DNA of 43,802 nucleotides from an uncultured Gemmiger sp. (GTDB lineage: Bacteria; Bacillota; Clostridia; Oscillospirales; Ruminococcaceae), in assembly GCA_944386225.1 (NCBI GenBank), contig CALXAH010000029.1, positions 1 to 43,802 of the forward strand, read 5' to 3'. Shown piece after piece: positions 8,571 through 18,287 of this stretch. The notes below the pieces were generated by a model that had not been told where the DNA came from, ran no database searches, and was given only the letters and a program-made list of their open reading frames with translations. The stretch's first letter is position 1; every line of letters starts with the position of its first letter. The position numbers were made by a program, and so were the translations under genes.

Positions 8571-10376
8571 ATGCGAAAAGACAAAAAGAACAAGCGCTCC
8601 ACGGCAGCGGTCGCTGCCCAGCGCATGGTCCTGGGCGGCCTTCCCCAGGAAGAAGAAGAGGTGCTGCAGAGCCCGCTGCAGATGGTGGTTGGCGCCTTTG
8701 TGAAGGACAAGATCGCCATGACCGGCGTGGTCCTGTTTACCTTTATCTTCCTGTGCTGCATTTTCCTGCCGTTCTTCTTCCCCATCGACCTGTATTATCA
8801 GGACGTGACCCAGGCCAACGTGGGCCCGGGCTTTGGCATGCTCAAAGTGCCCAGCCAGCTTAAGAACAACGCGCAGGACCTGTCCGTGGGCAGTTCCTTC
8901 TCGGTGGGCCTGGACAAGGACGGCAATGTGTACGAGTGGGGTACCTTCCCCAATGAAAAGCTGAAAAAGATCCCCAGCAGCAGCGAGACCGGCAAACTGG
9001 TTCAGGTCTCTGCCGGTCTGGACCATGTGGTTGCCGTCAATGAGGACGGTCAGATCTTCACCTGGGGCAACGACCGTATGGGTCTGGCCAGCATTCCCAT
9101 GGATCTGCGCACCGGCGGCAACGACATCAAGCAGATCTATGCCGGTTATCAGATCTCTCTGGCCCTGACCGAGGACGGCGAAATGTACAACTGGGGCAGC
9201 GACTACCTGCTGAGCATCAGCTATCCCGAAGGGGTACAGGGCAACATCGAGAAGTTCGCCGCCAGCACCAACATCGTTATGGTGCTGACCAAGGACGGCG
9301 AGGTTGTGCCTCTTACCAACAAGACTTCCGCCTACACCCAGATCCCGGAGGAAATCCAGGGCAACGTGGTGGATCTGGCGCTGACCGACGAATGCGCCGC
9401 GGCTGTCACCTCTGACGGGCGTGTGTATACCTGGGGCAACAACATCAAGAAGGGTCTGGATGTTCCCGAAAATATCCAGGGCCAGGTGGTTTCCATCACC
9501 GGCGGCCGGTATCACTTCACCGCCGTGCTGCAGGACGGCACCGTGCGCGGCTGGGGTGACAACACCCACGGCCAGGCCAACGCCCCCAAGGATGTGACCG
9601 TTGCCTCCGTGGACAGCGGCTACTACGCCAACTACGCCATCACCGAGGATGGCTCCGTGGTTGCCTGGGGTCTGAAGGGCTACCTGATGGGCACCGACGA
9701 TCTGGGCCGTGACCTGTTCCGCCGTATTCTGGTGGGCGGCCGTATGACCATGACCGTGGGCGCTATCGCTGTTATCATCTCCACCATCATCGGTATTGTG
9801 GTGGGTGGTATCTCCGGCTACAAGGGCGGCAAGGTGGACAACCTGCTCATGCGTCTGACCGAGATCGTTTCTTCGATTCCGTTCCTGCCGTTCTGTATTA
9901 TTCTGTCTTCGATCCTGGGCAACTCCATCAGCGAGACCCAGCGTATCATCCTGATCATGTGCATCCTGGGCCTGCTGTCCTGGCCCGGCATCGCCCGTCT
10001 GGTGCGCGGCAGCGTGCTGGCCGAGCGCGAGCAGGAATTCGTCACCGCCGCCAAGGCGCTGGGCGTGAAGGAATTCGGCATTATCTTCCGCCACATCCTG
10101 CCCAACATCATCACGGTCATCATCGTGAACGCGACCCTGAACTTTGCGACCTGCATGCTGACCGAGTCCTCCCTGTCCTTTATCGGCTTCGGCGTTACCG
10201 AGCCCAATGCTACCTGGGGTAACATGCTGACCGGCGCCCAGAACGGCCAGGTCATCGAGAACTACTGGTGGCGCTGGGTGTTCCCCGCTCTGATGCTGGG
10301 TATCTGCACCATCAGCATCAACTGCATCGGCGACGGCCTGCGCGACGCCATTGACCCCAAATCGAAGGAGAGGTGA
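8571..10376 (+). CDS. oppC: OppC-type peptide permease with an inserted seven-repeat RCC1-like beta-propeller
   Basis: A 601-residue fusion, about twice the usual OppC length. Residues 1-100 hold a charged N-terminus and the first membrane helix (about 50-71). Residues 103-369 hold seven RCC1/BNR-type repeats of the form V-x-A-G-x-x-x-x-x-A-L-x-x-D-G-x-V-Y-x-W-G, near residues 103-125, 144-168, 188-211, 226-250, 267-291, 307-330 and 345-369. The fourth repeat has lost its W-G. The permease then resumes exactly at the family motif MGTDDLGRDLFRRI and continues with five further helices and the EAA loop (FVTAAKALGVKEFGIIFRHILPNI). The insert therefore sits in the external loop between helices 1 and 2. 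The reading frame is unbroken and codon use matches the neighbours. It starts behind AAGGAGG. The likely role of the propeller is to contact the binding protein, substrate or cell wall, which is inference. Confidence 0.93.
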   Translation: MRKDKKNKRSTAAVAAQRMVLGGLPQEEEEVLQSPLQMVVGAFVKDKIAMTGVVLFTFIFLCCIFLPFFFPIDLYYQDVTQANVGPGFGMLKVPSQLKNNAQDLSVGSSFSVGLDKDGNVYEWGTFPNEKLKKIPSSSETGKLVQVSAGLDHVVAVNEDGQIFTWGNDRMGLASIPMDLRTGGNDIKQIYAGYQISLALTEDGEMYNWGSDYLLSISYPEGVQGNIEKFAASTNIVMVLTKDGEVVPLTNKTSAYTQIPEEIQGNVVDLALTDECAAAVTSDGRVYTWGNNIKKGLDVPENIQGQVVSITGGRYHFTAVLQDGTVRGWGDNTHGQANAPKDVTVASVDSGYYANYAITEDGSVVAWGLKGYLMGTDDLGRDLFRRILVGGRMTMTVGAIAVIISTIIGIVVGGISGYKGGKVDNLLMRLTEIVSSIPFLPFCIILSSILGNSISETQRIILIMCILGLLSWPGIARLVRGSVLAEREQEFVTAAKALGVKEFGIIFRHILPNIITVIIVNATLNFATCMLTESSLSFIGFGVTEPNATWGNMLTGAQNGQVIENYWWRWVFPALMLGICTISINCIGDGLRDAIDPKSKER

Positions 10377-12712: not shown

Positions 12713-14113
12713 CTATTTTACTCCGTCTGCCAGATCGGCAATCTCGCCCATATCCGGCAGCCAGACGGAACTTCCGTTCACAAAGGCGCTGCTGTCCTCG
12801 GTCTGGCCCCGGATGGTGGAGGGAATGGTGCCCTCCAGCTGGCCGCGGGCGCTTTCCGCCCGCAGCAGGCAGAAGTCGGTGATGGTCTGCACGCCGGTGA
12901 GGAAATCCTCATAGGAGCAGAAAGCGGTGGGGTCCTGCCGCACATAGGGCGCGATCATCTCCCGGGTGCGGGCCACCAGCGTTTCAAAATGGCCGCTCTC
13001 AAAATATTCGCGCAGGAACCGGTCGAACTGTTCGTGATACAGGGCGAAGATATCGTTCTGCAGCATCAGGTTGTGGTAGAGCGGGCGGTTGCGGGCGGTT
13101 GCGCCGGGGGTATCGATGGGCCAGTTGATGTACAGGGTGGAATCGTTGATCGGGTCGGGCATGCCCAGGGAATAGGTGGCAAAGGCCAGGTTATAGTCCC
13201 AGGGAAGCATCTGCAGCACCCCATTCTCCTCGTAGAGAAAATAGTTGTGCCCTGTGCGGCCCAGATAGCCGTCCAGATTCACCACAAACACCTGCACCAC
13301 AAAATACCGCACTACCTCGTCGATGTTCACGGCCTGTTCCAGGTTCTGCCCGCTGTCCAGGATTTTCAGCGCCCTGATCAGCCGGGCCTTGTCCGCATCG
13401 CTTACCGGGAATTTGGCATTGCGGAAGATGTTGTCATAATCCGCCGGATCGTCGGTGGTGTAGCGCAGGGCCACGTCGGCGTTTTCGTCGTTCAGGGAGC
13501 GGTAATCCGGCTTGTACAGCTGCCCGTGGTCGCTGCCGAAATTGCGCCGGGCAAAGGCTTCCTCCGGTTCCTCCACCGCCAGGAACAGCCCCCAGTCCTG
13601 CCCGTTCACCCGCACCCACACATAGCTGCACAGGGGCGAGGGCGCCTCCATAAAGGCCATCATGTCATAGGCCAGGAAGTTTTTCAGATAGCTGTTGTCC
13701 TGAAACGCCGCGTCCAGACTGAATTTATCCAGACCGTGGTAGCTGCCGGAGGTGTAGTGGTCGAACTCCAGTTTCAGGCTGTACCGTTCCAGGCCGTAGT
13801 CGCTCACCAGCCGGCGGGAGTTGTTCCCCTTGACCCGGATGCCCACCCGGGAGAATTTCTCCCCATCGATCACCAGGTCACAGGGGCTGTATTCCTCCTG
13901 GTCCGCACCGGCCAGAAAGCCCTCCCAGTCCTCATGGAAGATTTCCAGCGTATGCACCCGCCCTGCGTCAAACAGCCGCCGAGTATATTCCGGGACGGTG
14001 TGGGCCGGGGTGATCAGGCCCAGGGCCTCCCCTTTTGCCAGCAGCACCGCAACCGCCAGGGCCAGCGCCGCGGCCAGCAGGCAGATCCGGTCGATGTGTT
14101 TTGATCGCAGCAT
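12713..14113 (-). CDS. CotH-kinase-family protein, membrane-anchored
   Basis: A 466-residue CotH-fold protein (atypical secreted protein kinase family named after the Bacillus spore-coat kinase). An N-terminal hydrophobic segment (residues 8-26) acts as signal or anchor. The family landmarks are GIRVKGNNSRR (91-101), QDWGLFLAVEEPEEAFARRNFG (172-193), the NLDGYLGRTGHNYFLY region (279-294) and LPWDYNLAF (303-311). Asp281 and Asp306 are the likely counterparts of the acidic residues used for catalysis and metal binding. It is the last gene of an operon with a DUF4956 protein, a VTC-domain protein and an acidic repeat lipoprotein; one base separates it from DUF4956. I infer an extracytoplasmic role, and the Ser/Asp-rich repeats of the lipoprotein and of RsgI are candidate targets. 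Spore coat use is not implied. Confidence 0.88.
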   Translation of the reverse strand: MLRSKHIDRICLLAAALALAVAVLLAKGEALGLITPAHTVPEYTRRLFDAGRVHTLEIFHEDWEGFLAGADQEEYSPCDLVIDGEKFSRVGIRVKGNNSRRLVSDYGLERYSLKLEFDHYTSGSYHGLDKFSLDAAFQDNSYLKNFLAYDMMAFMEAPSPLCSYVWVRVNGQDWGLFLAVEEPEEAFARRNFGSDHGQLYKPDYRSLNDENADVALRYTTDDPADYDNIFRNAKFPVSDADKARLIRALKILDSGQNLEQAVNIDEVVRYFVVQVFVVNLDGYLGRTGHNYFLYEENGVLQMLPWDYNLAFATYSLGMPDPINDSTLYINWPIDTPGATARNRPLYHNLMLQNDIFALYHEQFDRFLREYFESGHFETLVARTREMIAPYVRQDPTAFCSYEDFLTGVQTITDFCLLRAESARGQLEGTIPSTIRGQTEDSSAFVNGSSVWLPDMGEIADLADGVK

Positions 14114-14114
14114 A

Positions 14115-14792
14115 TCAGTTCATGTAATCCCCGTTGTAGGCCACCAGCACCGTGTGCTCAACCCCGGGCAGGGCGGCCAGATCGTTGATGAAGCCGGTAT
14201 CCTCATTTTTCAGCCGGATCTCCCAGTTCAGCTCGATCCGGCCCGGTTCCACCGCCTTGCTTTTCAGGCTGAGACGGGCGGCATGCTGCTGCACAAACTG
14301 CCGGGCGGTTGTTTCCGCCGCCGCATCGGCACAGTGCAGCACCAGAATATAGGGCTGGGCGTGGCTGCGGAAGCCGGAAAATCCGGCCAGCACCGCCCCG
14401 ATGAACAGGCTGCCCGCCACCGCCAGCGGAATGAATCCCGCCGCCAGCACGATGCCCGCCGCAATGGCCCAGAACAGAAACGCGATATCCGAAGGGTCCT
14501 TGATGGCGGTGCGGAACCGCACGATGGACAGCGCGCCCACCATGCCCAGGCTGAGCACCACATTGCTGGTGACCGCCAGAATCAGCAGGCTGGTGATCAT
14601 GGTCAGGGCGATCAGGGTCACCCCGAAGCTGGCGGAGTACAGCACCCCCGCATAGCAGCGCTTATAAATATAAAAGATGAACAGCCCCACCGCAAAGGCC
14701 AGGCCCAGCGCCAGCGCCATGTCCGCCGGAGGAACGGCGTTTACTTCCTCCAGAAAGCCGGATTTGAAGATATCCTGAAAATTGAAAGGCAT
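14115..14792 (-). CDS. DUF4956 family membrane protein
   Basis: A 225-residue protein with three or four membrane helices in its first 135 residues (about 24-43, 50-75, 108-122 and 124-140) and a soluble cytoplasmic-looking C-terminal domain of about 85 residues. The signature LSLGMVGALSIVRFRTAIKD at about 82-101 is characteristic of DUF4956. In many bacteria this family is found next to VTC-domain and CotH genes, as here, which suggests that the three work as a unit. The molecular role is not established; by analogy with eukaryotic VTC complexes it may anchor the polymerase-like partner at the membrane or help move its product. It lies 9 bases after the VTC gene and is followed at one base by CotH. 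Confidence 0.88.
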   Translation of the reverse strand: MPFNFQDIFKSGFLEEVNAVPPADMALALGLAFAVGLFIFYIYKRCYAGVLYSASFGVTLIALTMITSLLILAVTSNVVLSLGMVGALSIVRFRTAIKDPSDIAFLFWAIAAGIVLAAGFIPLAVAGSLFIGAVLAGFSGFRSHAQPYILVLHCADAAAETTARQFVQQHAARLSLKSKAVEPGRIELNWEIRLKNEDTGFINDLAALPGVEHTVLVAYNGDYMN

Positions 14793-14801
14793 GGTTCCTC
14801 C

Positions 14802-15500
14802 TCAGTCGTACCGGCGGCAGGCGGCGTATTTGGAAAACGCTTCCGCCCGCCCGCGGGGCAGCTGCACCGTCAGCCGCGCCAGTTCCGGCAGAAATTCATC
14901 GTACTTGACCTCCAGCACCGTCTGGCCGGGGGCCATGGGAATATGGGGCAGCGCCGGGTCCAGGAAACGGGATGGCTCCATCCCGGCGCGCAGGTTCCGG
15001 TCCAGGGTGATGCGCAGATTGCCCGGCGCCCAGAGAAAGGCCTCCCGGTCGTAGGTCACGATCCGGCGGGGGGCCAGCCGCTGCCCCTGCATCTTGCTGT
15101 ACAGCTCGATCAGCAGGCTGTCGCCGCTTTCCAGCAGAAAGCCGGTATCGCCTGCCAGAAGCTGCTGCACCTGCCCGGCGGTGAGCCGGGCGCTGCGCTT
15201 GCCGCACAGCCCGCTGGCCTTGATCTTTTTCTCCAGCCGCACAAAACCGGTATCTTCGCCGTAGTACCGCAGGCGGAATTTCTCCCGGCGGTCGGTGCCG
15301 TCCAGCTTTTCCCGCAGAGCCCGGTCGCCCGGGGTGTCGAAATACAGGCTGCTTACCCGGTATATCCCGGAGAGCCCGGCGTGAGGATCCCGGCCGAACA
15401 GCCGCGCCAGGCGCTGGCTCAGGGCCCGATCCTCCGCCGGGGAAACACAGCTCTTGATCTCATGGCGCAGCCGCAGCGGGGTACGCGCCTCAGTCATCAT
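14802..15500 (-). CDS. VTC-domain protein (polyphosphate polymerase superfamily, CYTH/TTM fold)
   Basis: A 232-residue soluble protein with the full set of VTC-domain landmarks: RHEIK (12-16), SLYFDT (51-56), KFRLRYY, VRLEKK, PRRIVTYDREAF, ITLDRNLRAG and VLEVKYDEFLPE. The alternating Lys/Arg/Glu residues line the tunnel that in yeast Vtc4 binds triphosphate or polyphosphate. Polyphosphate synthesis is therefore possible, but bacterial members of this association have not, to my knowledge, a settled activity. The start codon lies inside the end of the repeat lipoprotein gene (11-base overlap, two successive ATGs), with no clear ribosome site, so translational coupling is likely. It is the second gene of the operon. 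Confidence 0.88.
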   Translation of the reverse strand: MMTEARTPLRLRHEIKSCVSPAEDRALSQRLARLFGRDPHAGLSGIYRVSSLYFDTPGDRALREKLDGTDRREKFRLRYYGEDTGFVRLEKKIKASGLCGKRSARLTAGQVQQLLAGDTGFLLESGDSLLIELYSKMQGQRLAPRRIVTYDREAFLWAPGNLRITLDRNLRAGMEPSRFLDPALPHIPMAPGQTVLEVKYDEFLPELARLTVQLPRGRAEAFSKYAACRRYD

Positions 15501-16506
15501 AGCCGGAGTCGCCCTCGTACCCGGAGTCGCCGTCGTCGTTGTCGTACCCGGAGTCCCCGCCCGCGTTGTAATCGGTGACGCCGTCGTTATTGGGGCCGTA
15601 GTCGGTGTCGTTGTAATCGGTCACGCCGTCGTTGTTCGGGCCGTAGTCGGTATCATTGTAGTCGGTCACACCGTCGTTGTTCGGACCGTAGTCGGTGTCG
15701 TTGTAGTCGGTCACGCCGTCGTTGTTCGGACCGTAGTCGGTGTCGTTGTAGTCGGTCACGCCGTCGTTGTTCGGGCCGTAGTCGGTGTCGTTGTAGTCGG
15801 TCACGCCGTCGTTGTTCGGGCCGTAGTCGGTATCGTTGTAGTCGGTCACACCGTCGTTGTTCGGGCCGTAGTCGGTGTCATTGTAGTCGGTCACGCCGTC
15901 GTTGTTCGGGCCGTAGTCGGTATCGTTGTAGTCGGTCACGCCGTCGTTGTTCGGGCCGTAGTCGGTATCGTTGTAGTCGGTCACGCCGTCATTTTCCGGG
16001 CCGTAGTCGGTGTCCACGTAGTCGGTCATGCCGTAGTCGCTTTCCCCCTGCAGATCCACCGGGCTCTGCCAGGAATTGGTGCTCACGCACTGGCGGACAT
16101 CCGCCACCACTTCGTCCAGGAACTCCGGATGGGGCAGCTGGGAACCGGCTTCGATCTCAATGGTGATCTGGCGGCTCTCACCTTCCACCTCTTCCACAAA
16201 GTAGCCGGCCTGGCCGATGGCGGACACCAGTTCGGTTACCACTTCCCGGCAGGGGCGGCCCTCGTAGCCGGTATAGCCTTCCAGCAGACGGGCCGCATCG
16301 TCGTTGCGGGCGGTCACGGCAGTCACGTTGCCCGCGTCGTTGTAGGCTACGTCAATCTCCGGATTCACCCGCAGATGCAGTACGCCGCCATCGGCCAGTT
16401 CCACGCCGGAAACAGCCGGGGCCGCGGTTCCGCAGCCAGTCAGGACAAACAGCGCCAGAGCCAGCGCCAGCAGCAGGGACAGATACTTGTTGTTCATCTT
16501 TTTCAT
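15490..16506 (-). CDS. Acidic repeat lipoprotein with an RsgI-type extracytoplasmic domain
   Basis: A 338-residue surface lipoprotein. Residues 1-25 are a signal with lipobox VLTGC (Cys25). Residues 42-118 resemble the extracytoplasmic domain of RsgI anti-sigma factors and of the neighbouring RsgI: LHLRVNPEIDVAYN matches YMTINPQVRIDVN, and an Asn48-Pro49 pair stands where RsgI proteins have theirs. Residues about 157-316 are ten tandem copies of a 15-residue unit (YNDTDYGPNNDGVTD), the first one diverged (V and E substitutions). The tail has three DSGY motifs in an Asp/Gly-rich end. The protein is extremely acidic. It lacks the cytoplasmic anti-sigma domain and the membrane helix, so it is not itself an anti-sigma factor. 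It is the first gene of the VTC-DUF4956-CotH operon, with AAGGAGG seven bases before the ATG. DxDxDG-like spacing could bind calcium; this is unproven. Confidence 0.85.
   Translation of the reverse strand: MKKMNNKYLSLLLALALALFVLTGCGTAAPAVSGVELADGGVLHLRVNPEIDVAYNDAGNVTAVTARNDDAARLLEGYTGYEGRPCREVVTELVSAIGQAGYFVEEVEGESRQITIEIEAGSQLPHPEFLDEVVADVRQCVSTNSWQSPVDLQGESDYGMTDYVDTDYGPENDGVTDYNDTDYGPNNDGVTDYNDTDYGPNNDGVTDYNDTDYGPNNDGVTDYNDTDYGPNNDGVTDYNDTDYGPNNDGVTDYNDTDYGPNNDGVTDYNDTDYGPNNDGVTDYNDTDYGPNNDGVTDYNDTDYGPNNDGVTDYNAGGDSGYDNDDGDSGYEGDSGYDD
15580..16029 (-). repeat. Ten tandem 45-bp coding repeats
   Basis: Ten head-to-tail 45-bp units inside the lipoprotein gene, with the conserved (g/a)ccgtcgtt block recurring at 15580, 15625, 15670 and every 45 bases to 15985. 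Most differences between units are silent third-position changes (for example gtgtcg/gtatcg/gtatca), so the protein repeat is better kept than the DNA. The unit at 15985 (N-terminal in the protein) is the most diverged and the one at 15580 has a small variant. Confidence 0.95.
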
Positions 16507-16532
16507 GGTGGTTCCTCCTTGTTATACGGAGT

Positions 16533-16552
16533 CTTGGCTCCGTTTTGTGGCT
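16533..16552 (-). other. Leader hairpin before the repeat-lipoprotein gene
   Basis: A 6-bp stem (ACGGAG with CTCCGT) with an eight-base loop between the SigI-type promoter motif and the ribosome binding site. It has no T-tract on the minus strand, so it is more likely an mRNA leader structure than a terminator. Confidence 0.4.
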
Positions 16553-16559
16553 TGTGTTA

Positions 16560-16605
16560 ACAGGATACGTACCGCCGGGGCCAAAACCGGGGTCGCCGCA
16601 AAAAA
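16560..16605 (-). promoter_or_regulatory. SigI-type promoter of the repeat lipoprotein-VTC-DUF4956-CotH operon
   Basis: Read on the minus strand: TTTTTTGCG, then GACCCCGGTTTTGG (16594-16581), 11 bases, CGTATCCTGT (16569-16560). The same blocks with the same 11-base gap stand before sigI. ACCCC and CGTA resemble the C-rich -35 and CG(A/T)A -10 elements described for SigI promoters. The predicted transcript begins about 50 bases before the start codon. Confidence 0.75.
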
Positions 16606-16609
16606 TTTT

Positions 16610-17491
16610 TTATTCGCTGTCATAGGCTGAATCCTCATAGCCGGAGTCCTCCGCCGGTTCGGGGCTGTCGTAGCCGGAGTCCTGCTCGGGGGGTGCGGGC
16701 GTTTCGTAGCCGGAATCCCCTTCCCCGTAGCCGGAATCCTGCGGCGGGGCGGTGGCAGCGGTATAGCCGCTGTCGCCCTGGGTTTCCGACGAACCGTAGG
16801 CGGAATCCCCATATCCCGAATCCCCGGCGGGCACGGGCGTGGGTACTGCCGTGGGTGCTGCGGTAGGCGTCGCCGTGGGAACCGCGGTGGGCGGCGGGCC
16901 CACCGGGATGGCCGCTTCCTGGCCGCCGGTTTCGCCCCCATCCACCCGGATGGTCACCTGCAGGGTTTCGCTGAGATATTCGTTCAGATGGGCGGGCAGG
17001 CTGTCGCTGTGAGCGGCCACCCAGTCCCCGTCCTCCGCGTCCAGGGTCAGGGTGATCTGGCCGCCGGGATGCAGCCAGCCCATCTCCACCGCCCGGTCGG
17101 TCAGTTCGTCCATCACCTGCTCCAGCTCCTTGCCCCGGCCTTCATAGCCTTCGGTCAGAACCTCGCCGTCCGGGTTGGTGCCTTCCACCGTCAATACGGT
17201 ATCCCGACGGTTTACGTCGATGCGAACCTGCGGATTGATGGTCATATACACCGATGCGTAGGGGATCTGCGCCATCCGCACTGCCGAAAGTGCCAGCAGC
17301 ACCAGGCAGGCTGCCGCCGTCAGCGCCGGAAACAGGATTGCCCGGCCACGCCGCCGGGGCGGGCGCATGGGCAGGATGGCGTCCAGCTGCTGGCCTACCT
17401 GATACTGCCGGTCGGCCGCTTTGAGAAACCGCCCTTCTTCGTCCAGCACCACCACATAACCCGGGTGCCGTTCCAGCACGATATACTTCAC
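16610..17491 (-). CDS. rsgI: RsgI-family anti-sigma factor with DSGY-repeat tail
   Basis: A 293-residue single-pass membrane anti-sigma factor. Residues 1-40 (MKYIVLERHPGYVVVLDEEG...) are the cytoplasmic RsgI N-domain that holds SigI. A basic stop-transfer stretch (44-50) precedes one membrane helix (51-72). Residues 78-185 are the conserved extracytoplasmic domain with YMTINPQVRIDVN; RsgI proteins are known to break at an Asn-Pro bond here, and Asn86-Pro87 fits. A Pro/Thr spacer (197-221) leads to a low-complexity tail with six DSGY and two DSAY motifs (224-290). Known RsgI tails often carry sugar-binding domains; this one instead has the acidic repeat also found in the neighbouring lipoprotein. 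A GTG start overlaps the sigI stop (GTGA), so the pair is coupled. Confidence 0.88.
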   Translation of the reverse strand: MKYIVLERHPGYVVVLDEEGRFLKAADRQYQVGQQLDAILPMRPPRRRGRAILFPALTAAACLVLLALSAVRMAQIPYASVYMTINPQVRIDVNRRDTVLTVEGTNPDGEVLTEGYEGRGKELEQVMDELTDRAVEMGWLHPGGQITLTLDAEDGDWVAAHSDSLPAHLNEYLSETLQVTIRVDGGETGGQEAAIPVGPPPTAVPTATPTAAPTAVPTPVPAGDSGYGDSAYGSSETQGDSGYTAATAPPQDSGYGEGDSGYETPAPPEQDSGYDSPEPAEDSGYEDSAYDSE

Positions 17492-18219
17492 GCGGTCGCC
17501 TCCTCTCCCCGTTTGAGCACACGGTGCAGGTGCCCCCGGATAATTTCATAGCCGTTGGTCTGGATCAGCAGCATGGCCAGCAGATACCGCCGGTGCCGCT
17601 CCAGGGTTTTGCGGGCAATGCCGCTGCCCTCGGCCAGACGGGCCAGAGGCAGACGGCCGGTGCGCAGCAGTTCTTCCAGCAGATCGGGATGCGCCGCCGC
17701 GTACCGCACCGCCTGCCCGCAGGCTTCCAGCGTGCGCTGCTGGCGGGGGCAGTTGTCCGCAATGTCGGAAAAGCTGGCCCCGAACCGCTGCAGCACCGTT
17801 GCCAGCTCCTCGATTTCCCGACGGGTGGCCTCACGGGTTTCCGCCTCGGCAAACCGGTCCCGGTCCTCCGGCAGGGTATCCGCCAGGGTGCGGCCATCCT
17901 CCTCATCCCGGGGCGCAAACAGCGAGATCTGCCCCCGGTGACGCTTTTCCCGCCGCTGATGGTCAATCAGGCGGCTGCGGATGGTCAGCGCCGCATACCG
18001 CAGAAACGGCCCCCGCATCCGGCTGTAGTTCTGGATAGCCTCATGAAAGGCAATCAGTGCAATGCTGTATTCGTCGTCCTGGTCGGTGCAGGGCCGCCCG
18101 AGAAACCGCGACGCCTGCCCCCGGATAAAGGGCAGACAATCCCGGATCAGCCCGTCCGCCCGGGCACTGTCGGTCTTGGCCGCAAACACCGCCTCCACAA
18201 TGGGATGCTCCTTGTCCAT
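17488..18219 (-). CDS. sigI: RNA polymerase sigma factor SigI
   Basis: A 243-residue alternative sigma factor of the SigI type. Region 2 is seen around DQDDEYSIALIAFHEAIQNY and GPFLRYAALTIRSRLIDHQRREKR (residues about 46-92), which includes the -10 recognition helix. The C-terminal SigI-specific domain holds the helix-turn-helix GIARKTLERHRRYLLAMLLIQTNGYEIIRGHL (about 199-230). Immediately downstream and overlapping by four bases is the cognate anti-sigma factor. Its own promoter carries the same motif as the next operon, so it probably activates itself. SigI factors in other Firmicutes respond to heat or to extracellular polysaccharide through RsgI. The start has GGGGAGGAAGG upstream. Confidence 0.92.
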   Translation of the reverse strand: MDKEHPIVEAVFAAKTDSARADGLIRDCLPFIRGQASRFLGRPCTDQDDEYSIALIAFHEAIQNYSRMRGPFLRYAALTIRSRLIDHQRREKRHRGQISLFAPRDEEDGRTLADTLPEDRDRFAEAETREATRREIEELATVLQRFGASFSDIADNCPRQQRTLEACGQAVRYAAAHPDLLEELLRTGRLPLARLAEGSGIARKTLERHRRYLLAMLLIQTNGYEIIRGHLHRVLKRGEEATA

Positions 18220-18240: not shown

Positions 18241-18287
18241 ACAGGATACGCAGCCCGCACCCCAAAACCGGGGTCGGACGCAAAAAA
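18241..18287 (-). promoter_or_regulatory. SigI-type autoregulatory promoter of sigI-rsgI
   Basis: Minus strand: TTTTTTGCG (18287-18279), GACCCCGGTTTTGG (18275-18262), 11 bases, CGTATCCTGT (18250-18241). The two 14- and 10-base blocks are identical to those at 16594-16560 and the gap is the same length. The start codon follows about 22 bases after the block, leaving a very short leader. Confidence 0.78.

Follow-up and report, generated by a model that had tools for sequence, protein, structure and literature searches.

What do a sigma-I factor and its membrane anti-sigma factor control when they lie beside a CotH-type kinase, and on what does that kinase act? The question is raised by six neighbouring genes on a 43,802-nucleotide stretch of DNA (hereafter the window) from an uncultured Gemmiger sp. 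(assembly GCA_944386225.1, contig CALXAH010000029.1). An initial annotation, made from the sequence alone, had read them as sigI and rsgI followed by an operon for an acidic repeat lipoprotein, a VTC-domain protein, a DUF4956 membrane protein and a CotH-type protein; Pfam and NCBIfam searches confirmed this gene content in a single locus. We favour, with a probability of roughly 55%, a reading in which SigI drives a cell-surface module, CotH phosphorylates a Ser/Thr-x-Tyr unit (S/T-x-Y) present on both the lipoprotein and RsgI, and RsgI would sample the output of the module. This reading is drawn from sequence comparison.

The tail unit goes with CotH

In the window, Ser or Thr stands two residues ahead (-2) of all 25 tyrosines of the lipoprotein tail, and Ser ahead of all 8 tyrosines of the RsgI tail; Lys and Arg are absent from both. 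The occurrence of this unit was compared between loci with and without CotH (L and G numbers designate loci and genomes). At least five [ST]xY were found in 68 of the 69 lipoprotein frames beside CotH (loci L058-L157). The exception, L068 of genome G017, is an apparently tailless CotH-linked lipoprotein with the unit present out of frame. By comparison, none of seven lipoproteins without CotH, VTC or DUF4956 in the 5.2-7.6 kb downstream reached this number (0 to 4 over the whole frame). The whole open reading frame (ORF) of L198 holds 4 [ST]xY and the whole 946-residue frame of L200 holds 6. Over the last 100 residues, S/T occupied position -2 of 607 of 641 tyrosines beside CotH (53 loci) versus 3 of 32 without it (the seven loci), several of these 32 lying in PepSY-type domains that are also present in some CotH-linked lipoproteins. 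Such repeats were also seen in their own right: in four lipoproteins with no CotH beside them (L188 by Pfam; L191, L198 and L203 by eye), PepSY-type repeats replace the S/T-x-Y units.

A looser no-CotH set of 11 loci adds L191, L199, L200 and L201, where 1 to 205 bases downstream are visible and where L199 and L200 are cut within the tail. Excluded were L192 and L195, whose contigs end within the lipoprotein, L194, where the lipoprotein is divided between frames, and L202, which has no N-P. The four contig-end loci gave tail counts of 0 to 2, which is weaker proof, and all 11 together 0 to 3; in this comparison the unit was present in 60/60 loci with CotH and 0/11 without. All 11 keep the N-P site and the lipobox, and 8 of them the promoter motif described below. 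Mean D content of the whole tails is 25% in both sets. Tails without CotH differ among loci and stay acidic while losing S/T before x-Y, as in L196, where Tyr is kept. Among the genomes concerned, G066, G076 and G081 have no Pfam CotH, and G219 and G409 gave no match at E up to 1e-20 to the CotH-subfamily profile, the only kind of CotH searched for there; G237, which carries a CotH of another kind, was counted among the no-CotH-locus genomes, and so was G197, which additionally holds a CotH-linked lipoprotein bearing the unit.

RsgI tails behaved similarly: two or more units were counted in 52 of the 53 with CotH alongside (all but L114) and in one of the six without it (L201). Genome G017 also holds a SigI-RsgI-lipoprotein set (L219) with S-x-Y in both tails and no CotH nearby, the one CotH of that genome being on another contig. 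Such three-gene sets without CotH alongside were found at L188, L189, L190, L196 and L197. The lipoprotein of L189 (7280-8719) apparently has two RsgI_M-like copies, the second without N-P, which Pfam reports as one stretch. Lipoprotein and VTC frames seem fused in L126 and L194; like the out-of-frame tail of L068, these may be frameshifts or assembly errors.

Covariation of the two tails was then measured in 57 loci having both, reduced to 53 at 95% CotH identity, by independent contrasts on a CotH tree with 10000 permutations. The S[DGNAS]Y densities of the lipoprotein and RsgI tails rose and fell together (rho 0.85, n=53). The contrasts gave r 0.65, a value reached in 0/10000 permutations and the highest among the features tried; G content did not covary (r 0.13). 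The RsgI tail also resembled its own lipoprotein weakly more than that of the nearest relative, in 3-mers (higher 36, lower 17, p 0.017) and in 4-mers (higher 32, lower 20, p 0.028). Overall, the lipoprotein and the kinase-like CotH appear to have evolved together, and the coupling of CotH to repeat tails claimed in the initial annotation was borne out by both the presence of the unit (68/69 vs 0/7) and its covariation.

The claim that DSGY and DTDYG repeats are the CotH targets stood in part. The tails do go with CotH, but no Ser accompanies the Thr and Tyr of the main lipoprotein unit, DTDYGPNNDGVTDYN, and within these two proteins DSGY is confined to the lipoprotein end and the RsgI tail. 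Pairwise codon differences among the ten 15-residue units amount to 123 synonymous and 9 nonsynonymous, all nine involving the first copy. We take the likeness of this unit to D-rich calcium-binding repeats as a resemblance only; a Pfam scan of the two window tails gave no match to a named calcium repeat. DSGY as a genome-wide tag was considered and rejected: a genome search limited to TCN serine codons gave 31 occurrences, 8 of them in the two tails, and no other cluster.

The lipoprotein is a relative of the outer part of RsgI

Described initially as a mere acidic repeat protein, the lipoprotein proved to contain an RsgI_M domain (Pfam, 46.2 bits) and an N-P site, both previously missed. Its domain profile matches the RsgI domain profile with 98.9% probability and aligns to solved RsgI 8t9n (E 7.8e-9), relating it to solved autocleaved RsgI domains. 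The solved chain 8hep_B starts at a Pro aligned with the N-P site of both the lipoprotein and RsgI profiles, and 8her_B at a Pro aligned with that of the RsgI profile; by coordinates only, 8u9o_B, 8heq_B and 8hdj_B begin at the N-P profile position. Starting at this Pro is as expected for a self-cleaved protein. Self-cleavage of RsgI has been reported in C. thermocellum (PMC12203970).

The N-P pattern was found in 63 of 68 lipoproteins of relatives (61 printed V-N-P) and in 59 of 60 RsgI, the remaining one being cut. Four of the five misses among lipoproteins are cut by contig ends, and L139 has no Asn. The L068 lipoprotein also has V-N-P-E-L. A lipobox was recognised by pattern in 51 of 53 lipoproteins. 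From these comparisons the lipoprotein is a relative of the RsgI outer part with a self-cleaving-type domain, and it probably cuts itself between Asn and Pro.

One promoter type precedes both units

SigI matches Sigma70_r2 (38.9 bits) and, with E 2.9e-48, a best SigI model, though below the curated cut-off of that model. It adjoins an RsgI with RsgI_M (66.8 bits), a transmembrane (TM) segment and RsgI_N, the latter at 21.2 bits and below the Pfam cut-off of 25. The initial annotation had noticed a shared promoter motif ahead of both units. Indeed, across 3.38 Mb of genome ACCCCNNTTTTN13CGTAT is matched perfectly twice, upstream of sigI and of the lipoprotein gene, with no hit at one mismatch and 24 at two; a reversed control pattern gave 21 in total. 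Since perfect matches precede these two units only, the predicted SigI regulon consists of them.

The motif is kept in relatives, taken as the best 80 of 528 CotH relatives with near-copies retained. A looser form gave 87 matches in 63.6 kb of sigI and lipoprotein windows versus 5 in the other 2.23 Mb, both strands included. Counting whole windows only, the T-tract motif is in 48/58 lipoprotein and 28/53 sigI windows (85 matches; 7 elsewhere), and an A-tract form is in 2/58 and 17/53, respectively. The reversed control was in 0/58 and 0/53, and a scrambled control in 0 lipoprotein and 2 sigI windows. The sigI promoters are thus mixed (T-tract 28, A-tract 17 of 53), and the lipoprotein promoters nearly all of the T-tract type. 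In published sigma-I promoters the tract is an A-tract and the -10 element CGAA or CGWA; those of sigma-I3 also carry a C triad two bases upstream of the tract (PMC6056542, PMC10575876). The promoters described here have the C-run, the tract and CGWA, with a T-tract replacing the published A-tract. We infer from the promoters that both units are transcribed by SigI.

The locus recurs among relatives

In the neighbourhood survey that the initial annotation had proposed, all six genes were present in 50 of the 55 relatives' loci with at least 4.5 kb upstream. Of the other five, two are limited to SigI, RsgI, lipoprotein and CotH and three lack other members. The taxa given in the titles of the 80 records include Oscillospiraceae, Lachnospiraceae, Erysipelotrichia and Tissierellia. 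At seven loci, sigI-rsgI points away from the operon. Of 394 genomes of the order, 19 gave a CotH match above 700 bits, and the lipoprotein domain (E up to 1e-20) is present in 18 of these, as compared to 10 of the 375 others; in the exception, G331, CotH is at a contig start. By CotH, the locus therefore occurs in about 1 in 20 sampled genomes of the order (19/394), and it is found in named cultured strains; Fournierella massiliensis (L085) and Intestinimonas butyriciproducens (L119) have the full six-gene set.

It had also been argued that finding the four operon genes commonly without sigI-rsgI would count against the proposal. Three of them, VTC-DUF4956-CotH, were found without sigI, rsgI or lipoprotein in 9 of 20 stretches fetched in the family sample (L061, L064, L065, L066, L067, L070, L071, L072 and L074; L065, L070 and L074 show little flank), but the lipoprotein is missing from those loci. 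Conversely, lipoprotein and CotH occur without VTC or DUF4956 between or beside them in L087, L099, L130, L131 and L217.

CotH, VTC and DUF4956

CotH scored 198.4 bits (Pfam) and aligns to the solved CotH 5jd9, presumably from B. cereus, with E 8.1e-18. The conserved PWD Asp is kept, and we take it to be D228 of B. subtilis CotH. In that enzyme the D228Q change abolishes activity; its phosphorylation targets are tandem repeats in two proteins (PMC7821199).

The VTC protein (Pfam, 108.5 bits) matches Vtc4 3g3q (E 6.6e-7), and many of its basic residues are invariant across 16 aligned rows. These conserved residues would map one by one to the Vtc4 tunnel. Among 119 family genomes, VTC is present in 51/56 with CotH and 33/63 others, so that phosphate supply is allowed, not demonstrated. 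The genomes of L087, L099, L130, L131 and L217 each have VTC elsewhere, and 6/6 genomes checked have VTC away from CotH; this says little on phosphate supply, because 84/119 family genomes have VTC anyway. DUF4956 was identified at 43.9 bits (Pfam), and further models matched it weakly (MgtC/SapB 21.5 bits; antiporter subunit E 0.045).

A Pel locus context was considered for this genome and rejected, as a PelG search of the genome, whose rated completeness is 99.83%, found nothing. We tentatively equate the MgtC/ACT membrane protein SIR_1592 of S. intermedius with DUF4956. The trio VTC-DUF4956-CotH is known as an accessory set next to the pel operons of streptococci, clostridia and bifidobacteria (PMC7112168). 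Aggregation of S. intermedius fell, and its Pel levels changed, when the CotH-like SIR_1594 or SIR_1592 was deleted, and no aggregation drop is reported, in the available text, on deleting the polyphosphate-polymerase gene SIR_1593 (PMC12345266). The authors of that source report having found no such trio outside Pel loci; it does occur outside them, here.

Features and genome setting

Coordinates are collected in Table 1. On one side of the locus lie oligopeptide ABC transporter genes read by eye on the + strand, one permease being confirmed by Pfam; on the other, a PH-domain ORF (Pfam) and a gene resembling a copper ATPase (by eye). The flanking gaps are too small for a long gene besides the PH-domain ORF. 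Profile search found one CotH in the genome, two VTC proteins and three RsgI_M proteins: RsgI, the lipoprotein and one behind a gene looking like an extracytoplasmic function (ECF) sigma factor.

Table 1. Features of the sigI-rsgI and lipoprotein-VTC-DUF4956-cotH locus, in window coordinates.
Feature	Position	Strand	Basis
Six-gene set sigI-rsgI + lipoprotein-VTC-DUF4956-cotH	12713-18219	- (all)	ORF calls, Pfam/NCBIfam
sigI, sigma-I family factor, 243 residues	17488..18219	-	Sigma70_r2 and SigI models
rsgI, membrane anti-sigma factor, 293 residues, one TM-like stretch at residues 49-77	16610..17491	-	RsgI_M, weak RsgI_N, hydropathy
RsgI_M (self-cleaving type) domain of RsgI, I-N-P site	16946..17260	-	profile comparison
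RsgI outer tail	16610..16915	-	residue count
Lipoprotein, 338 residues, lipobox LTGC, RsgI_M domain, repeat tail	15490..16506	-	ORF, Pfam
RsgI_M-like domain of lipoprotein, V-N-P-E-I	16024..16398	-	Pfam, profile comparison
Ten 15-residue units D-T-D-Y-G-P-N-N-D-G-V-T-D-Y-N, one E in first copy	15565..16014	-	codon comparison
DSGY-rich end of lipoprotein tail	15490..15564	-	sequence
VTC-domain protein, 232 residues, no TM-like stretch; 11-base overlap with lipoprotein gene	14802..15500	-	Pfam, hydropathy
DUF4956 membrane protein, 225 residues, three long hydrophobic stretches	14115..14792	-	Pfam, hydropathy
CotH-type kinase, 466 residues, N-terminal hydrophobic stretch 5-35, PWDYN motif	12713..14113	-	Pfam, alignment
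SigI-type promoter upstream of sigI: C-run, two bases, T-tract, CGTAT	18246..18274	-	perfect match; type kept in relatives
SigI-type promoter upstream of lipoprotein operon	16565..16593	-	perfect match; motif in relatives' lipoprotein windows

The second VTC-domain gene is at contig C8:66951-67601 of the genome, apart from the sole CotH. The third RsgI_M domain protein (C41:2482-2889, L002) has a D-V-N-P site and follows the ECF-type-looking sigma gene (by eye); an RsgI_M-type domain is here paired with a sigma factor not resembling SigI. The oligopeptide permease at 8571-10376 (+) has OppC_N and BPD_transp_1, with RCC1 repeats, probably an extracellular beta-propeller, between its N-terminal TM segment and the permease domain.

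Proposed mechanism and alternatives

We propose that a SigI/RsgI switch would control a cell-surface module, SigI transcribing its own unit and that of lipoprotein-VTC-DUF4956-CotH from the promoters seen ahead of both. The lipoprotein, held by a lipid anchor and probably cleaving itself within its RsgI-type domain, would present its long acidic S/T-x-Y tail. CotH, probably outside the membrane, may phosphorylate Ser/Thr of the units in the lipoprotein and RsgI tails, as its occurrence with the hydroxyl-x-Tyr unit in both tails points to. VTC and DUF4956 may provide or process the phosphate that this modification needs, which is the weakest step. Because RsgI carries the unit of the product, it could sample the output of CotH, closing a feedback loop. 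If true, a surface kinase would have a target common to a surface protein and its controlling sensor, making a product-sampling loop. The proposal puts forward probable substrates and a target unit of CotH beyond spore coats, suggests a role for VTC-DUF4956-CotH, a set whose part in Pel loci lacks an explanation, and brings in a lipoprotein whose self-cleaving domain is of the RsgI type.

Several observations weigh against this proposal. CotH would have to act outside the cell, where no ATP is known. T[DN]Y density did not covary between the tails (contrast r 0.16, 53 loci), and contrasts were also obtained for D (0.50), E (0.48), Y (0.43), Ser outside the unit (0.40), S (0.36), P (0.30) and T (0.28); since single letters covary too, part of the tail signal is shared composition. 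Beside CotH, the RsgI tails of L114 and of L217 (outside the 53) have no unit; that of L201 has 3 units in a genome with no match to the CotH subfamily. Genome G197 carries a CotH-linked lipoprotein with the unit (L206) plus a second lipoprotein without it (L203). The domain tree is poorly resolved and five changes are needed. Independent pairs on starred branches number 4 (7 loci) or 2 (11 loci), all in the expected direction and too few for p below 0.05. Finally, the -2 residue before the Tyr of lipoprotein units is mostly Thr (669 T, 231 S), and reported CotH sites are mostly Ser (PMC7821199).

The tail data also bear on two other explanations. Sharing the domain, N-P site and promoter type with RsgI, and having a similar tail, the lipoprotein might compete with RsgI for one ligand or pulling force, serving as its decoy or sharing its load and so damping SigI, with CotH tuning the binding of the tail. 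The SigI-RsgI-lipoprotein sets lacking CotH would suit such a role; the tails of no-CotH loci differ from each other, however, and we regard it as tentative and rather doubtful. The tail pattern could also stem from drift of low-complexity sequence or from a composition inherited in common, with no functional link to CotH, as the repetitive tails, the covariation of D, E, Y, S, P and T after tree correction and the weak tree support would allow. S-x-Y has the top contrast correlation while T-x-Y and G have none, the units hold their peptide under synonymous change, and tails without CotH stay acidic yet lose S/T before x-Y; we consider this explanation very unlikely.

Other explanations concern the trio. 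With SigI merely driving them, CotH, VTC and DUF4956 could be the same Pel accessory module acting on an exopolysaccharide or its synthase, and the lipoprotein a calcium-binding matrix protein, for which the likeness of the 15-residue unit to calcium-binding repeats would speak. The position of the trio next to pel operons (PMC7112168), the S. intermedius deletion effects of SIR_1594 and SIR_1592 (PMC12345266) and the chitin-synthase-like gene near C. perfringens NELoc-2 (PMC2879425) all agree with it. Yet PelG was not found, the spaces flanking the locus could hold no long gene other than the PH-domain ORF, the flanks read by eye as Opp transporter and copper-ATPase genes (no glycosyltransferase search was made elsewhere), and tail units follow CotH where acidity does not; this explanation is unlikely. 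The coat of the initial annotation, polyphosphate made and exported by VTC and DUF4956 while CotH decorates the lipoprotein, would account for the match to Vtc4 with invariant basic residues and for VTC being commoner in CotH genomes. We consider it highly improbable: five loci have no VTC/DUF4956 beside CotH (their genomes hold a VTC elsewhere, which says little, as 84 of 119 family genomes have one), the other model matches of DUF4956 are weak, and lowered aggregation is not reported for the SIR_1593 deletion in the available text (PMC12345266). A closed extracellular phospho-loop in gut Clostridia, with VTC and DUF4956 exporting polyphosphate as phosphoryl donor in place of ATP, CotH phosphorylating the S/T-x-Y tails of a self-cleaving lipoprotein decoy and of the anti-sigma factor, and the phosphorylated tails setting the ease of pulling the cleaved domains apart and hence SigI activity, seems quite unlikely.

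Comparison with known systems

No literature joining RsgI, an RsgI-like lipoprotein and CotH was found in a search that left most subscription papers outside; among the papers it covered, those naming both RsgI and CotH are chiefly on cellulosomes, the rest being unrelated. In common with SigI/RsgI of C. thermocellum and B. subtilis, the present system has a sigma-I factor, a self-cleaving RsgI domain, the C triad and CGWA at -10 (PMC6056542, PMC10575876, PMC12203970). It differs by S/T-x-Y tails in place of carbohydrate-binding modules, by an RsgI-like lipoprotein in the predicted regulon, and by promoters with a T-tract at the lipoprotein and mixed at sigI. C. thermocellum cseP, a CotH-dockerin gene under SigI6, likewise joins CotH to a sigma-I promoter, one that proved active when tested in a B. 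subtilis reporter; it is cellulosomal, and the available text names no VTC, DUF4956 or RsgI-like lipoprotein with it (PMC4711584). Pel accessory genes (CotH, polyphosphate polymerase, DUF4956, DUF4832) include the same trio, which stands here without PelG and with sigI-rsgI and the lipoprotein (PMC7112168, PMC12345266).

The initial annotation knew of no described system with this exact set; none was met, but C. perfringens NELoc-2 is a near precedent. We guess that its 226-residue membrane protein, listed as tubulin/FtsZ, is DUF4956. One table of that locus holds SigI, a 348-residue hypothetical protein, VTC, the 226-residue membrane protein, a resolvase, a second pair and CotH (PMC2879425). 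Compared by description only, NELoc-2 differs in that no separate lipoprotein is listed, the VTC pair is duplicated with a resolvase, and the available text does not describe it as one regulated system (PMC2879425). As for the kinase, the spore-coat CotH of B. subtilis acts on two proteins, CotB and CotG, phosphorylating Ser within their disordered tandem repeats (PMC7821199). The repeats there are of Ser, Lys and Arg, whereas here they are acidic S/T-x-Y units borne by a lipoprotein and an anti-sigma factor.

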